Part shown: positions 1,078 through 6,851 of the stretch, piece by piece
Layout: every line of letters starts with the position of its first letter
Numbering within the stretch: the stretch's first letter is position 1
NCBI RefSeq assembly: GCF_000421265.1
Contig: NZ_ATWN01000003.1
Span: 372,001 to 436,000, forward strand
Source of the DNA: Thalassospira lucentensis MCCC 1A00383 = DSM 14000
Lineage (GTDB): Bacteria > Pseudomonadota > Alphaproteobacteria > Rhodospirillales > Thalassospiraceae
Direction: 5' to 3'
Length of the DNA stretch: 64,000 nt
Position numbers and translations under genes: made by a program
Notes under the pieces: model-generated
Told to the model about the DNA's origin: nothing
Databases searched by the model: none
Seen by the model: only the letters and a program-made list of their open reading frames with translations

Positions 1078-2112
1078 TCAGTGCACAATCTGGAACACCA
1101 GCCCGACAGCGAATGACCCGATCAGGGCATAGGCAAGATACAGCGCGAAAACCGGTTTCTTGACGAGTGCGAAGACCGCAATCGCAGCAGGAAGGGACGA
1201 TACACCACCCGCAACCAGAAATGCCATACCGGCACCGGCCTGCATACCCTGCCCGATCAGTCCACCGACCAGCGGCAGAGCGGCATACCCGTTCAGGTAA
1301 GCAGGAACACCGACAAGGGTCGCGATCAGGACGGGCAGAACGCCATCCCCGCCAACAGCAGCCGAAACTGTTTCAACCGGAATATAGGTAACCATCAGGC
1401 TTTCCAACAAAAACGCCAGGGCCAGCCACTTCCCCAGAAACAGGGTGGTTTTGATGGCATCCCGGCGAAATCTGTCCGTACGGTCCGGTTCCTGCCAGAA
1501 ACGCCATACCGGCGGCTTCGGGGACCGCATCTTACCCCCGCCGCAGCCGCCGTTTCCAATCCCTTCGCGCAAGGGGTCGGTCAGGAAACCAAGCCGGGTC
1601 AGCCAAAGCGTGGCAAAACCGCCAATCAAGCCAAGTGCAATCGCGGCAAGCAATTTGCCGACCGCAAATTCCATCCCAATGGTGCCAACAGTCAGCATGA
1701 ACATTGCCGGATCAATCACCGGGGACGCCAACCAGAACGCCATCACCGGCGCCAATGGAACGCCCATCGACAACAGGGCAGCAATCAACGGGATCACGCC
1801 GCACGAGCAGAAAGGCGACAATGCGCCAAATGCAGACGCCATCAGGACCATTTTCACAGGATGACCACTGAAAGCGCGCGCAATCAGGCTATCTGCCCCG
1901 GTTGCCCCGGCCCAAGCGGCAATCATCACCGACAACAGCAGGAACGGCGCAACCGATGCAAGCTGCTGCCCGGTAAAGACCAGACTGCCGGGTAATTGAG
2001 CAGGCACGACCACGGCCAGTGCCAACAATATTGCGACAATGGTGACCCAAACCCGGTCAAGGGACCTACCGGTTTCGGCAAACCGGCGAAGTTTCAATGC
2101 AATATCTGACAT
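1078..2112 (-). CDS. DUF318/YraQ-family permease in ars locus
   Basis: A predicted inner-membrane permease of about 344 residues with eight or more hydrophobic segments. Residues near position 100 contain FCSCGVIPL, the cysteine-containing signature of the DUF318 (UPF0718, YraQ/ArsP-like) family. A central cytoplasmic-looking loop holds a GNGGCGGG cysteine patch, a feature often seen with metalloid substrates. A longer frame reaches 2214 but would overlap the upstream repressor. ATG 2112 has AGGG 8 nt upstream and is preferred; ATG 2118 is too close to it. The gene follows an arsR gene in the same direction, with a copy of that repressor's operator directly in front. Some relatives export organoarsenicals; whether this one moves As(III), methyl-arsenic or something else cannot be read from sequence. 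Confidence 0.8.
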   Translation of the reverse strand: MSDIALKLRRFAETGRSLDRVWVTIVAILLALAVVVPAQLPGSLVFTGQQLASVAPFLLLSVMIAAWAGATGADSLIARAFSGHPVKMVLMASAFGALSPFCSCGVIPLIAALLSMGVPLAPVMAFWLASPVIDPAMFMLTVGTIGMEFAVGKLLAAIALGLIGGFATLWLTRLGFLTDPLREGIGNGGCGGGKMRSPKPPVWRFWQEPDRTDRFRRDAIKTTLFLGKWLALAFLLESLMVTYIPVETVSAAVGGDGVLPVLIATLVGVPAYLNGYAALPLVGGLIGQGMQAGAGMAFLVAGGVSSLPAAIAVFALVKKPVFALYLAYALIGSFAVGLVFQIVH

Positions 2113-2118
2113 ATCCAT

Positions 2119-2161: not shown

Positions 2162-2476
2162 TCAGACCATCTCTTCCTCCTGCCCGACATCAACCCCGAT
2201 GCAGCATTCATCAATCAGTGTTCCCAGCACGTTGCGCACCGCCAGGATCTCGGCGTGATTAACGACCTCGCGACCGTGTTTTTCCTGCCGAACCAGCCCA
2301 ACCTGAACAAGCCCACCCAGATGGTGGGCCAGTGTCGAGGCCGGAAGACCAGTATGGCGACCGATTTCACCGATATTCAATCCGGTTTCTCCCGCCCGCA
2401 CCAGCAGACGGAAAATGCCCAGACGGGCCGAATGGCCCAATGCGGCCAGGATAGGGGCAATGTCTGTTTCCTTCAT
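2162..2476 (-). CDS. arsR: ArsR-family metalloid repressor 1
   Basis: A 104-residue SmtB/ArsR winged-helix repressor. The recognition region is LPASTLAHHLGGLVQVGLVR (about residues 44-63), followed by the beta-wing EKHGREVV. A vicinal cysteine pair lies near the C-terminus (DECCIG, about 90-91), a plausible As(III)/Sb(III) sensing site. It lies immediately upstream of the permease on the same strand and is divergent from a second arsR. The ATG at 2476 has no Shine-Dalgarno. A TATAAT on the minus strand ends 7 nt before it, which fits a leaderless transcript. The perfect palindrome 2487-2506 overlaps this promoter, so autorepression is likely. The family call is secure; the ligand is inferred from cysteines and neighbours. 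Confidence 0.88.
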   Translation of the reverse strand: MKETDIAPILAALGHSARLGIFRLLVRAGETGLNIGEIGRHTGLPASTLAHHLGGLVQVGLVRQEKHGREVVNHAEILAVRNVLGTLIDECCIGVDVGQEEEMV

Positions 2477-2483
2477 GCCGCCA

Positions 2484-2489
2484 ATTATA
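2484..2489 (-). promoter_or_regulatory. -10 element of arsR1 (leaderless)
   Basis: Minus-strand TATAAT lies 7 nt upstream of the arsR1 ATG (2476), placing the expected transcription start at or within one base of the start codon. No good -35 hexamer is visible at 17-18 bp spacing. Confidence 0.5.
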
Positions 2490-2506
2490 ACTATACTTCT
2501 AGTTAT
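2487..2506. promoter_or_regulatory. ArsR1 operator, perfect 7-6-7 palindrome
   Basis: ATAACTA-N6-TAGTTAT is a perfect inverted repeat overlapping the arsR1 -10 element. Its size, AT-rich arms and location are typical of ArsR/SmtB operators. A degenerate copy precedes the permease gene at 2119-2138. Confidence 0.65.
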
Positions 2507-2600
2507 TTAAAGATGTTTTTCCCTCTCCATCAAGATGCTGATAATATTGAACATTCTGAAGGATCACGTCCCAAAACCCGCTTTGAAACAGAATTGTCAC

Positions 2601-2629
2601 TTGTCAAACAACAATTGTGTCGATATTTC
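2601..2629 (+). promoter_or_regulatory. Promoter of arsR2 operon (leaderless)
   Basis: TTGTCA at 2601-2606, a 17-bp spacer and TATTTC at 2624-2629 form a sigma-70-like promoter. The expected start point is about 2636-2637, which is the A of the arsR2 ATG. The -10 lies in the centre of the palindrome 2618-2635. Confidence 0.5.
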
Positions 2630-2635
2630 TCGACA
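2618..2635. promoter_or_regulatory. ArsR2 operator, perfect 6-6-6 palindrome
   Basis: TGTCGA-N6-TCGACA is a perfect inverted repeat covering the -10 region and ending 1 nt before the arsR2 ATG (2637). Its sequence is unrelated to the arsR1 operator, so the two repressors probably read different codes. Confidence 0.65.
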
Positions 2636-2636
2636 T

Positions 2637-2966
2637 ATGGACACAAATAATGCAATTGCCGCCCTTGGGGCTCTGGCACAGGAACACAGACTTTCGGCTT
2701 TCCGCTTGCTTGCCCAAATGGGTGAAACCGGCATGGCCGCAGGCGAACTTGCCCGCAAGGTCGGCATTCCGCACAACACCATGTCGTCGCATCTGGCAAC
2801 ATTGAGCAATGCGGGATTAATCAGCGCAACCCGTGACGGTCGATCCATGATCTATCGCATCGTGCCCGAAGTGATGCGCGGTCTTCTTGGGTTCCTGACA
2901 GATGATTGCTGCCATGGTCGTCCGGAATTATGTGGACTGACCGCCCCCTCCAAGGACTGCTGTTAA
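2637..2966 (+). CDS. arsR: ArsR-family metalloid repressor 2
   Basis: A 109-residue ArsR/SmtB repressor heading the resistance operon. The winged helix includes VGIPHNTMSSHLATLSNAGL, with wing TRDGRSMIYR. Cysteines cluster at the end: TDDCCHGRPELC near residues 88-97 and a terminal KDCC. This is the three-or-more-cysteine C-terminal arrangement seen in several bacterial As(III) sensors. The frame is open upstream to 2535, but the extra N-terminus does not look like ArsR; the family starts near MDTNNAIAALGALAQEHRL. The ATG at 2637 lacks a Shine-Dalgarno and sits 7 nt after a -10 hexamer, suggesting a leaderless mRNA. arsC follows 31 bases after the stop. It presumably represses arsC-acr3-gapdh-arsJ until arsenite binds. 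Confidence 0.9.
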   Translation: MDTNNAIAALGALAQEHRLSAFRLLAQMGETGMAAGELARKVGIPHNTMSSHLATLSNAGLISATRDGRSMIYRIVPEVMRGLLGFLTDDCCHGRPELCGLTAPSKDCC

Positions 2967-2997: not shown

Positions 2998-3510
2998 ATG
3001 TCTGGTGGAACCTATAACGTGCTTTTCCTGTGCCGGGCCAATTCCGCGCGCAGCATCATGGCCGAAGCCATCCTGAAAAAAGAGGGGCATGACCACTTTT
3101 TCGGGTTTAGCGCAGGTTCCCACCCGCGCGGTGAAATTCATCCCTATACAGCAGATCTTCTGCAATCGCTTGACCATGACCCGTCAGAGTTTTCATCCAA
3201 GGAAATGGAAGTTTATTCCCAGAAAGACGAAGTTAAATTCGATTTCGTTTTTACCGTGTGTGACACCATGAACAACGAGGATTGCCCGATCTTTCCGGGA
3301 TCGCCGGTGACTGCCCACTGGGGCGTTCCTGACCCGGCAGCCGTTACCGGCACCGAAGCCGAAAAACGTCTGGCCTTTGCCGTTGCCTATCGGATGTTGC
3401 GCAATCGTATTTCGATTTTCACCAGTCTTCCGTTCCAGTCACTCGATCGGCTGTCATTGCAGCACAAGCTCGATGAAATCGGCCAGACCACATCAAGCGA
3501 GGACGCATGA
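2998..3510 (+). CDS. arsC: Arsenate reductase, LMW-phosphatase type
   Basis: A 170-residue protein of the low-molecular-weight tyrosine phosphatase fold that reduces As(V) to As(III) in the cytoplasm. The P-loop CX5R motif is at C12-R18 (FLCRANSARS). Further features are the general-acid region GVPDPA near residue 118 and extra cysteines in TVCDTMNNEDCP that may form the resolving disulfide. It is longer than the roughly 130-residue S. aureus ArsC and resembles the alphaproteobacterial ArsC often placed before acr3. The stop codon overlaps the acr3 start (ATGA at 3507-3510), so translation is probably coupled. As(III) made here would be exported by Acr3. Confidence 0.9.
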   Translation: MSGGTYNVLFLCRANSARSIMAEAILKKEGHDHFFGFSAGSHPRGEIHPYTADLLQSLDHDPSEFSSKEMEVYSQKDEVKFDFVFTVCDTMNNEDCPIFPGSPVTAHWGVPDPAAVTGTEAEKRLAFAVAYRMLRNRISIFTSLPFQSLDRLSLQHKLDEIGQTTSSEDA

Positions 3511-4586
3511 CCACCAAAGAAGATGCCCCGATGAACCTGTTTGAACGCTACTTAACCGTCTGGGTCGCGGCGAGCATCGTGGTTGGCATTGCCCTTGGTG
3601 AAATGCTTCCCGACCTGTTTCAGACCATTGGCAATCTGACCGCCTATGAAATCAATTTACCGGTCACCATCCTGATCTGGTTGATGATTGTGCCGATGTT
3701 GATGAAGGTTGATTTCAAGGCCCTTCATGAAGTGGGCAAACAGTGGCGCGGCATCGGGGTCACCCTTGGGGTGAACTGGCTGATCAAGCCCTTTACCATG
3801 GCGGCCCTTGGCTGGTTATTTATCGGGGTTCTGTTTCGCCCACTGCTGCCAGAGGCCGAAATTGAAAGCTATATCGCTGGCTTGATCCTTTTGGGCGCGG
3901 CCCCCTGTACGGCCATGGTGTTTGTCTGGTCCAACCTGACCAAGGGGGATGCGAATTTCACACTCAGCCAGGTTGCGCTGAACGATACCATCATGATTTT
4001 CGCCTTTGCACCGATTGTCGCACTTTTGCTGGGTATTTCAGCGATCACCATCCCGTGGGAAACGCTGACCATTTCTGTTGTTGCCTTCATCGTGATTCCA
4101 GTCATTGTCGGGCAGTTTTTGCGACAATTCGTCATGTCAAAGGGCATGACCGCGTTCGAGAAATTTGACGCCAAACTTAAACCGATTTCGATGTTTGCCC
4201 TGCTTGCGACACTGGTTCTACTGTTTGCCTTTCAGGGACAGCAGATCCTTGCCCAGCCCGTGATTATTGTGCTGCTGGCGGTGCCGATCATTCTGCAAAC
4301 CTATTTCATTGCTGCAATTGCCTATGTCGCCAACAAGGTTCTGGGCGTTGAGCATAAAATTGCGGCCCCATCAGCGATGATTGGCGCATCCAACTTCTTT
4401 GAACTGGCTGTTGCCACCGCCATTGGTTTGTTCGGGTTCTCATCAGGTGCGGCATTGGCAACCGTGGTTGGCGTGCTTGTCGAAGTACCGGTGATGCTGT
4501 CGCTTGTCGCGATTGCCAACCGATCACGTCATTGGTTTTCGGATGCAAAAACCACCACACCCCAAACTTCCGAGGTTTCAAAATGA
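3507..4586 (+). CDS. acr3: Arsenite efflux pump Acr3
   Basis: A 359-residue, ten-helix inner-membrane arsenite/H+ antiporter of the ACR3 (bile acid/arsenite/riboflavin transporter) family. The hallmark segment [16 protein letters not shown] contains the essential conserved cysteine, and [11 protein letters not shown] follows in the next helix. A second signature, [19 protein letters not shown], lies near residues 291-309. ATG 3507 overlaps the arsC stop and has GAGGA just upstream. ATG 3531, nearer the conserved [11 protein letters not shown], is an alternative start. The stop overlaps the next ATG (4583). It removes As(III) produced by ArsC, while the downstream GAPDH/ArsJ pair handles As(V) directly. 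Confidence 0.95.
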
Positions 4587-5623
4587 CCGGAAAAATGCGC
4601 ATTGGTATCAATGGATTTGGCCGTATGGGCCGCTTGGCCCTGCGCGCAGGATGGGGACATCCGAACCTTGAATTCGTGCATATCAACGAAATCAAGGGGA
4701 GTGCGAAAACCGCGGCCCACCTTTTGGAATTTGATTCCGTGCATGGCCGCTGGACCAAAGGCGTTGAATGCATTGACGATCAGGTCGTGATTGACCAGAC
4801 GCATAAAATCTCGTTTAGCGACAATCCGACACCGGGCGACACCGACTGGGCGGCATTTGGCTGTGACATTGTTTTGGAATGTACCGGCAAGTTTAAAACG
4901 CCAGAGACCATCCAGCCCTATTTTGATCAGGGGATCAAAAAGGTCATCGTGGCCGCGCCGGTCAAGGAAGGTGCGCTTAATATTGTCTATGGCGTGAATG
5001 ACGATCTGTATGATCCAACGCAACATGACCTTTTGACCGCGGCAAGTTGCACGACCAACTGTCTTGCACCGGTGGTCAAGGTCATTCACGAAAATCTTGG
5101 CATTGTGCATGGTTCAATCACCACCATTCATGATGTCACCAACACCCAGACCATTGTTGATTTACCGCACAAGGATTTGCGCCGCGCGCGATCCTGCCTG
5201 CAGTCACTGATCCCGACCAGCACCGGATCAGCAACCGCCATCACCATGATTTACCCGGAACTCGCCGGAAAACTGAACGGTATTGCGGTGCGCGTACCAC
5301 TTTTGAATGCGTCGCTGACCGATTGCGTATTTGAAGTGGCGCGTGACACCGATGTTGAAACGGTCAACCGTCTGATGCGCGACGCATCGGAAACCTATCT
5401 GGCGGGTATTCTGGGCTATGAAGAACGCCCGCTTGTCAGTGCGGATTACCTCAATGATTCACGGTCTTCGATCATTGATGCCGGATCAACCATGGTGATC
5501 GACAAACGTCAGGTCAAAGTTCTGGCGTGGTATGACAATGAATGGGGATATGTCTGCCGCATGGTCGATCTTGCCACCAAAGTTGCCCAAAGCATGCCCA
5601 GCCATAACGCCGGCGGAGCATAA
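4583..5623 (+). CDS. ArsJ-associated glyceraldehyde-3-phosphate dehydrogenase
   Basis: A 346-residue type I GAPDH in the ars operon. It has the Rossmann start [13 protein letters not shown] and catalytic cysteine C156 in AASCTTNC. Further family motifs are [30 protein letters not shown] and the C-terminal WYDNEWGY. In ars operons this enzyme uses arsenate in place of phosphate and makes 1-arseno-3-phosphoglycerate, which ArsJ exports. The product hydrolyses outside, so the pair removes As(V) without reducing it. The ATG overlaps the acr3 stop (ATGA at 4583-4586) and arsJ begins 1 nt after its stop. This tight packing supports an ars role over central glycolysis. An in-frame extension to 4532 lies inside acr3 and is rejected. 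Confidence 0.93.
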
Positions 5624-5624
5624 A

Positions 5625-6851
5625 ATGTCATCCGCGATCCGAAATTATGCACTGGTTACGGGTGCCTATTGGGGTTTCACCCTGACCGACGGTGCATTGC
5701 GGATGCTGGTTCTGTTGCATTTTTACGCACTGGGCTATTCGGCATTCGAGATCGCGCTTCTTTTCGTTCTTTATGAATTTGCCGGAATCATCACCAATCT
5801 GGTGGGCGGGTGGCTGGCACAGGTGCGTGGATTGCGCTTTACACTATTTGCCGGATTAATCTTGCAAATCGCATCGCTAACCGCACTGTCGTTTACCAAC
5901 CCTGATTGGCTTCCTGCTGTTTCGGTCGCCTATGTCATGGGACTTCAGGCGGCATCGGGTGTTGCCAAGGATCTAACCAAAATGTCGAGCAAGTCGGCAA
6001 TCAAGGTTCTTGTCCCGACCGAGGCAAAAGGTGCGCTGTTTCGCTGGGTAGCACTTTTGACCGGATCGAAAAACGCGTTGAAGGGCGTTGGCTTCTTTTT
6101 GGGCGGCGCGCTTTTATCATGGTTGGGATTTTCGGGTGCCCTTTTGGCCATGGCTGCCGGACTTGGCATCACGCTGATTGCCGTCGCTCTATCTCTTGGC
6201 GCGGAAATGTCGGGTCCGACCAATGCCCTCAAACCCAAATTTCGCGACATCTTTTCCCCGGACCGCAAGATCAACATTCTTTCAGCTGCACGTTTGTTTT
6301 TATTTGGCTCACGCGATATCTGGTTCGTTGTCGGCTTGCCTGTATTTTTGGCGGCTGAACTTGGCTGGAGCCACATTGAAGTTGGCACCTATATGGCAGC
6401 ATGGGTGATCGGGTATGGTTTCATCCAGGCAATTGCCCCCAAGATGCTCCGCGCACAAAGCCATGAACCCGATGGCCGAACCGCACGGCTGTGGATTGTT
6501 GCCCTGATCGCTGTCACGGTCGCGATTGCAAGTGCTGTTCAACAAGGTTTCGCTCCAGAATTTGCGGTTCTGGCCGGGCTCTTGGTCTTCGGGATTGTCT
6601 TTGCGATAAATTCATCGCTGCATTCCTATTTAATTCTGGCCTATGCCGATGGCGACAAGGTCGCGATGAATGTCGGGTTTTACTATATGTCCAATGCCAT
6701 CGGACGCCTTGCCGGAACGATCCTTTCCGGGGCGGCTTACTTTTATGGCGGGCTGGTTGGATGTCTTGTGACCTCAATTGCGTTTTTAACCATCAGTTGG
6801 ATCATCAGTGTGGCTCTACCGATCCATCAGACACCCGCACCGCAGAGTTGA
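5625..6851 (+). CDS. arsJ: Organoarsenical efflux MFS transporter ArsJ
   Basis: A 408-residue major facilitator of the ArsJ family, recognised from the N-terminus NYALVTGAYWGFTLTDGALR and the stretch LYEFAGIITNLVGGWLAQ in the first helices. About twelve hydrophobic segments are present. The central loop contains DLTKMSSKSAIK, which is strongly conserved in ArsJ. It is proposed to export 1-arseno-3-phosphoglycerate made by the preceding GAPDH. ATG 5625 is chosen because it starts 1 nt after the GAPDH stop; the upstream extension to 5532 is GAPDH sequence in another frame. It is the last gene of the operon. No clear intrinsic terminator follows. Confidence 0.93.
   Translation: MSSAIRNYALVTGAYWGFTLTDGALRMLVLLHFYALGYSAFEIALLFVLYEFAGIITNLVGGWLAQVRGLRFTLFAGLILQIASLTALSFTNPDWLPAVSVAYVMGLQAASGVAKDLTKMSSKSAIKVLVPTEAKGALFRWVALLTGSKNALKGVGFFLGGALLSWLGFSGALLAMAAGLGITLIAVALSLGAEMSGPTNALKPKFRDIFSPDRKINILSAARLFLFGSRDIWFVVGLPVFLAAELGWSHIEVGTYMAAWVIGYGFIQAIAPKMLRAQSHEPDGRTARLWIVALIAVTVAIASAVQQGFAPEFAVLAGLLVFGIVFAINSSLHSYLILAYADGDKVAMNVGFYYMSNAIGRLAGTILSGAAYFYGGLVGCLVTSIAFLTISWIISVALPIHQTPAPQS

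Follow-up and report, generated by a model that had tools for sequence, protein, structure and literature searches.

Previous studies placed the arsR gene of Cupriavidus metallidurans CH34 (Rmet_0333) among the leaderless regulators (passages of PMC7563307), and its transcription start was mapped 0 bp upstream (passages of PMC9045368). In acuR-acuI-dddL of Rhodobacter sphaeroides, passages of PMC3017554 describe an autorepressor gene in first place whose leaderless mRNA starts exactly at the AUG, an inverted repeat with an N6 centre that overlaps the promoter, later genes that carry Shine-Dalgarno sequences, and conservation in other bacteria; translation of the leaderless acuR was about 7.5% of that of the gene after it. 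The same passages cite lambda cI and Tn1721 tetR as leaderless repressors, in agreement with a preliminary description of the DNA analyzed here, which had named these two as precedents, and the arsR of C. metallidurans is a closer one. Leaderless genes are also enriched in the transcription category in bacteria (passages of PMC3160421). By titles and abstract openings, our literature searches returned no report of a leaderless arsR in Alphaproteobacteria or Thalassospira and no paper describing such a fused layout as conserved among these arsR genes; the passages found of the start data for Magnetospirillum (PMC8547445) contained no arsR, and those for N. gonorrhoeae (PMC3032703) were silent on leaderless arsR.

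Here we analyzed 64,000 nucleotides of Thalassospira lucentensis MCCC 1A00383 = DSM 14000 (NZ_ATWN01000003.1, positions 372,001 to 436,000; the window), in which 160 bp separates two divergent ArsR/SmtB-type genes, ArsR1 on the minus strand and ArsR2 on the plus strand. From sequence comparison we think it quite probable that both are negatively autoregulated ArsR-type repressors translated from leaderless mRNAs.

Materials and Methods

The genus set comprised 29 genomes of the family, all of one genus, with readable upstream regions for 20/20 ArsR1 loci and 27 ArsR2 loci; left out were L041 (contig begins within the gene), L047 (another ArsR2-like gene) and L069 (no ArsR1 ortholog). At the class level we used the best-scoring loci outside the genus, 28 of ArsR2 and 29 of ArsR1 relatives; L227 and L239 were dropped (no ATG by the rule), which left 27 ArsR2 and 28 ArsR1 relatives, and two of these 28, L257 and L260 (= L218 and L231), were also in the ArsR2 set and were dropped from the feature score. 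The phylum search gave upstream regions of 22 further alphaproteobacterial and 23 non-alphaproteobacterial loci. The rule for choosing a start, the ATG nearest the start of homology, picks wrongly for at least L289. In this ArsR2 relative an in-frame ATG abuts the palindrome and a second ATG, preceded by GGAGG, lies 12 nt on, a possible case of two starts.

The background was 464 kb of one genome, that of the window (the window and 20 stretches), with a home-made, crude start caller; 290 starts had a gap of at least 60 nt before them, and 246 were used for feature comparison. From the same genome, 30 of 34 TetR and 30 of 71 LysR matches were sampled. Three features were scored: a dyad at the ATG, TANNN[TC] 6-8 nt before the ATG, and a TTG-type -35 at 34-37 nt.

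Results

Structure of the divergent pair

The anatomy of the locus is given in Table 1. ArsR2 is the first gene of an arsC-acr3-gapdh-arsJ run. Both proteins belong to the winged-helix HTH, ArsR/SmtB family, with PF12840 and PF01022 above cut-off in each, and for NF033788 (cut-off 55) ArsR2 scored over the cut-off (64.4) and ArsR1 just under it (51.4). The nearest solved structure for both was the ArsR 6j05 (E 1.7e-22 for ArsR2, 7.4e-12 for ArsR1), which we take to be an Acidithiobacillus ferrooxidans protein. Vicinal cysteines near the C terminus, putative As(III) or metal ligands, align with those of 6j05 as CC in ArsR1 and CC...C in ArsR2, so that ArsR1 is without the more distal Cys of ArsR2. 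ArsR2 is 100% identical in a T. lohafexi record.

Table 1. Features of the divergent arsR locus (window positions).
Feature	Position	Strand	Remark
ArsP_1-type permease, 3' of ArsR1	1078..2118	-	PF03773 above cut-off
ArsR1, ArsR/SmtB-type repressor, 104 aa	2162..2476	-	HTH_20 and HTH_5 above Pfam cut-off
Spacer TGGCGGC, -10 to ArsR1 ATG	2477..2483	-	7 nt, without Shine-Dalgarno
-10 TATAAT of ArsR1	2484..2489	-	
ArsR1 operator-like palindrome ATAACTA-N6-TAGTTAT	2487..2506		perfect 7-bp arms, 6-bp centre
-35-like TTTAAA of ArsR1	2506..2511	-	16 nt from -10; sole -35-like hexamer there
-35 TTGTCA of ArsR2	2601..2606	+	17 nt 5' of -10
ArsR2 operator-like palindrome TGTCGA-TATTTC-TCGACA	2618..2635		perfect 6-bp arms
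-10 TATTTC of ArsR2	2624..2629	+	exact 6-bp centre of the palindrome
ArsR2, ArsR/SmtB-type repressor, 109 aa	2637..2966	+	C-terminal CC...C; NF033788 above cut-off
arsC-like low-molecular-weight phosphatase-fold arsenate reductase	2998..3510	+	Shine-Dalgarno-like AAGGA
acr3, arsenite efflux	3507..4586	+	TIGR00832 above cut-off
gapdh, ArsJ-associated glyceraldehyde-3-phosphate dehydrogenase	4583..5623	+	NF033735 above cut-off
arsJ, organoarsenical efflux	5625..6851	+	NF033734 above cut-off

The preliminary description had placed -10 hexamers 7 nt before both ATGs and TTGTCA 17 nt from TATTTC, which is exact to the base; the ATG of ArsR1 lies at 2476-2474 on the minus strand, and TCGACAT separates the ArsR2 -10 from the ATG at 2637-2639 on the plus strand. 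Its statements that neither gene has a Shine-Dalgarno and that both operators are perfect palindromes over the promoter were likewise borne out: the longest match to an extended Shine-Dalgarno core near either ATG is 3 nt (4-5 nt for arsC, acr3, gapdh and arsJ), and one palindrome arm of ArsR1 has 3 bp in common with its -10. Thus both genes combine a spacing that would place +1 at the ATG, an AUG start and no Shine-Dalgarno. The TTTAAA/TATAAT pair of ArsR1 matches 10/12 consensus bases; the TTTAAA of the genus ArsR1 genes is not a good -35, and several class-level relatives (L232, L236, L238, L248) have TTGACA or TTGAAA here, overlapping the left arm. TATTTC, without the final T, is weak as a -10 against the E. 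coli consensus, and the ArsR2 promoter was not among the 2 sites that an E. coli-type promoter scan returned over 2.5 kb, where chance alone predicts 1.7.

Downstream of ArsR1, we observed a terminator-like hairpin with a T run between this gene and the permease (2171-2156, minus) and a half copy of the ArsR1 operator, ATAACTA-N6-TAG, directly before the permease start (2138-2123, minus). Most of the 20 ArsR1 loci have a similar block ahead of the permease gene, which suggests a separate permease promoter under putative ArsR1 control. The permease may start at its second ATG, at 2112, as the first ATG is absent in some relatives.

Conservation within the genus

An ArsR2-like match was present in 29/29 genus genomes and an ArsR1 ortholog at E < 1e-30 in 20. 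The ArsR1 -10 (TATAAT in 14, TATATT, TATATC and TATGAT in 2 each) was located 6-9 nt before the ATG in 20/20 orthologs, at 6 nt in 15, 7 nt in 2, 8 nt in 1 and 9 nt in 2. There were 18 distinct spacer sequences among the 20; the spacer therefore drifts in sequence and hardly in length, which fits the prediction of a start-site constraint, and the longer spacers of 8-9 nt in 3/20 count against a leaderless start. In 20/20 orthologs an upstream ArsR1 start is ruled out, since the reading frame is closed by a stop 6-45 nt before the ATG and holds no ATG, GTG or TTG in between.

The arrangement TTG(-36)-17-TA(-13)-7-ATG was identical in 27/27 ArsR2 orthologs, and the different ArsR2-like gene of L047 has the same layout. 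In three of the 27 the frame is closed by a stop at -24 or -27, and the ATG is therefore the ArsR2 start in these three. In a diverged clade of five the -10 is TATTAT, TATTCT or TATCTT, with T at the last position. The arm pair at -15/-6 is G-C in 18/27, C-G in 5/27 (the diverged clade) and unpaired in 4/27, and such a swapped pair is the behaviour expected of an operator. The ArsR2 palindrome, which overlaps the promoter and is conserved with compensating changes, is thus a predicted operator. Its dyad pairing covers the A of the ATG in 26/27 and the T in 23/27 orthologs, so that it reaches into the start codon in most of them, but imperfectly in the window.

Shine-Dalgarno matches of at least 5 were found at 0/27 ArsR2 and 0/20 ArsR1 genes of the genus vs 52/246 background starts. 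At least two of the three features were present in 27/27 genus ArsR2 and 0/20 genus ArsR1 genes, although the -10 is present in 20/20 of the latter, because their -35 is TTTAAA and the operator ends farther from the ATG; the ArsR1 case therefore rests on the -10 spacing.

The back-to-back pair had been called striking. The pair is real, with an ArsR1 operator-like palindrome 5' of ArsR2 in 19/27 genus loci; it is less striking than supposed, because relatives of ArsR1 and of ArsR2 often share the layout, partner or not, and the remaining 8/27 loci keep the ArsR2 layout without a neighbouring ArsR1 operator. A message that seems to start at the first codon, with the operator within the same few bases, looks like the family's usual design and not a peculiarity of this locus.

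Relatives beyond the genus

Among 385 alphaproteobacterial genomes, ArsR2 relatives were found in 174 and ArsR1 relatives in 112 (E up to 1e-15, each tally taking in some hits that match the other query too), and the phylum search found relatives in 160/398 genomes. In the 60 nt before the ATG, exact TTGAC was located at 34-36 nt in 13/14 occurrences in the 27 class ArsR2 relatives and at 34-37 nt in 14/18 occurrences in the 28 class ArsR1 relatives, vs 2/13 occurrences at that distance in the 246 background starts. The palindrome arms vary (TGTCGA/TCGACA, TTTCGA/TCGAAA, ATTTCAA/TTGAAAT in a Kiloniellaceae locus, AATTCAT/ATGAATT in Salipiger), and yet the right arm in each case lies directly against the ATG.

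At least two of the three features were present in 16/27 class ArsR2, 13/22 further alphaproteobacterial, 14/23 non-alphaproteobacterial and 12/26 class ArsR1 relatives, vs 3/246 background, 1/28 TetR and 1/27 LysR starts of the window genome (p 1e-11 to 3e-34, genus ArsR1 excepted, values to be read no further than as large differences, given the crude start caller and the shared ancestry of the relatives). The leaderless design thus appears to recur across Alphaproteobacteria and outside. It is not universal: 11/27 class-level ArsR2 relatives fall below two features, L201, L202 and L298 have no such layout, and L249 and L327 have a Shine-Dalgarno leader. L249, an ArsR1 relative with the palindrome, then a longer leader with AGGAGGT, then the ATG, is a natural leadered counterpart.

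Background of the window genome

A 5-bp-arm dyad ending at the ATG was present at 17/246 background and 7/27 LysR starts, which is not rare, and we therefore did not accept a palindrome by itself as evidence; the case draws its strength from conservation and from the features in combination. Leaderless spacing was not significantly enriched in the window genome among HTH_20 matches, a set that includes non-ArsR proteins (5/27 vs 4/30 TetR and 1/30 LysR, pooled p 0.27). The HTH_20 matches L100, L105, L107 and L119 (spacing 6-7, with a -35) look better than the TetR ones, a choice made post hoc.

Similar spacings were seen at other ArsR-type genes of this genome. L011 combines TTGACA and a palindrome with TATTCT, the last 6 nt ahead of the ATG; its seven close copies (L261-L266, L269) keep TTGAC and TATNNT 6-7 nt before the ATG, and the distant copies L267 and L268 have no TA hexamer there. 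L016 has TATAGT 7 nt before the ATG, all six of its close orthologs (L270-L275) carry TATAGT or TATACT at the same distance, and some of 11 distant relatives (L270-L286 set) do likewise. The HTH_5 matches L007 and L009 have TATGAT and TAGCAT, respectively, 6 nt before an in-frame ATG.

Discussion

The preliminary description held that both genes look leaderless. By comparison, the promoter spacing, the start codons and the lack of a Shine-Dalgarno hold, and the start site itself is deduced from them; leaderless transcription of both genes is likely and well supported in this way. Transcripts that begin farther upstream, with a leader without Shine-Dalgarno and with the palindrome only an operator between promoter and ATG, would agree with the weak consensus match of the ArsR2 -10, and other promoters would fit in the 160-bp intergenic region. 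However, TTGAC/TTG is fixed 34-37 nt before the ATG across the class, the TA of the ArsR2 -10 is invariant (27/27), the sequence farther upstream has no conservation by eye, and the promoter scan found no other site in the gap, so we regard a distant upstream start as unlikely.

We give still less credence to the idea that the real start codons are elsewhere and that misannotation accounts for the spacing. The window ArsR2 does have TTG and ATG codons in frame upstream, at -36, -54, -90 and -102, but orthologs of the genus (20/20 ArsR1 and 3/27 ArsR2) have in-frame stops with no start between, 11/27 class-level ArsR2 relatives have an in-frame stop within 30 nt, and the next in-frame ArsR2 start codon downstream, TTG codon 24, falls within the HTH match, whose first residue is 13. 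It is similarly improbable that leaderless starts are so common in this genome as to make the pair ordinary: Alphaproteobacteria do have leaderless genes, 171 of them in S. meliloti (passages of PMC3616915), but among the 290 gap-preceded starts only that of ArsR1 has a TATAAT whose end lies 5-9 nt ahead of it, and no genome-wide peak of -10 elements (TANNNT) at leaderless distance was present, so that by this test leaderless spacing is no general habit of the genome.

With leaderless starts at both genes as the preferred reading, we propose the following mechanism. RNA polymerase would bind a promoter whose -10 is contained in, or partly shared with, the palindrome on which the repressor acts as its own regulator, and the first transcribed base would be the A of the ATG or one no more than about 3 nt from it. 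A repressor dimer on the palindrome would cover the -10, plus the start codon in most ArsR2 orthologs, and would prevent transcription for as long as it is not released by As(III) or a related metalloid. The AUG-initial mRNA would be translated without a Shine-Dalgarno, the downstream effector genes having Shine-Dalgarno-like sequences, and by analogy with acuR of Rhodobacter the sensor may be made sparingly relative to the effectors.

More tentatively, and with slightly less than even confidence, we suggest that leaderlessness is ancestral and selected across a Pseudomonadota arsR lineage as a fused promoter-operator-start module, in which the -10 is the operator centre, the right arm enters the AUG, the arm bases follow repressor specificity, the distance to the AUG is fixed, and synthesis of the sensor never depends on a Shine-Dalgarno. 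A leaderless arsR itself is already known, and the modest new point is the apparent wide conservation of leaderlessness in this arsR lineage. What was a curiosity about single leaderless repressors thereby becomes a rule that can be tested over a widespread family. Should arsR-type sensors prove leaderless throughout the phylum, the benefit can be asked about, whether a lower level of sensor than of effectors, as measured for acuR, or continued synthesis under stress. The layout also bears on start-codon annotation and on arsR-based biosensors, in which an added strong ribosome-binding site would shift the native set-point.

Compared with known systems, as far as the passages cited above describe them, the arsR of C. 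metallidurans resembles ArsR1 and ArsR2 in its leaderless mRNA, measured there and deduced from sequence here, and differs from the Thalassospira pair as a single ars operon of a betaproteobacterium. acuR is a close functional precedent, since it shares the autorepressor as first gene, the N6-centred repeat on the promoter and the Shine-Dalgarno sequences on later genes; it differs in belonging to the TetR family, in responding to acrylate, and in being one gene rather than a divergent pair. Lambda cI and Tn1721 tetR are also repressors with leaderless mRNAs, whose protein families and signals are unrelated to those of ArsR1 and ArsR2.
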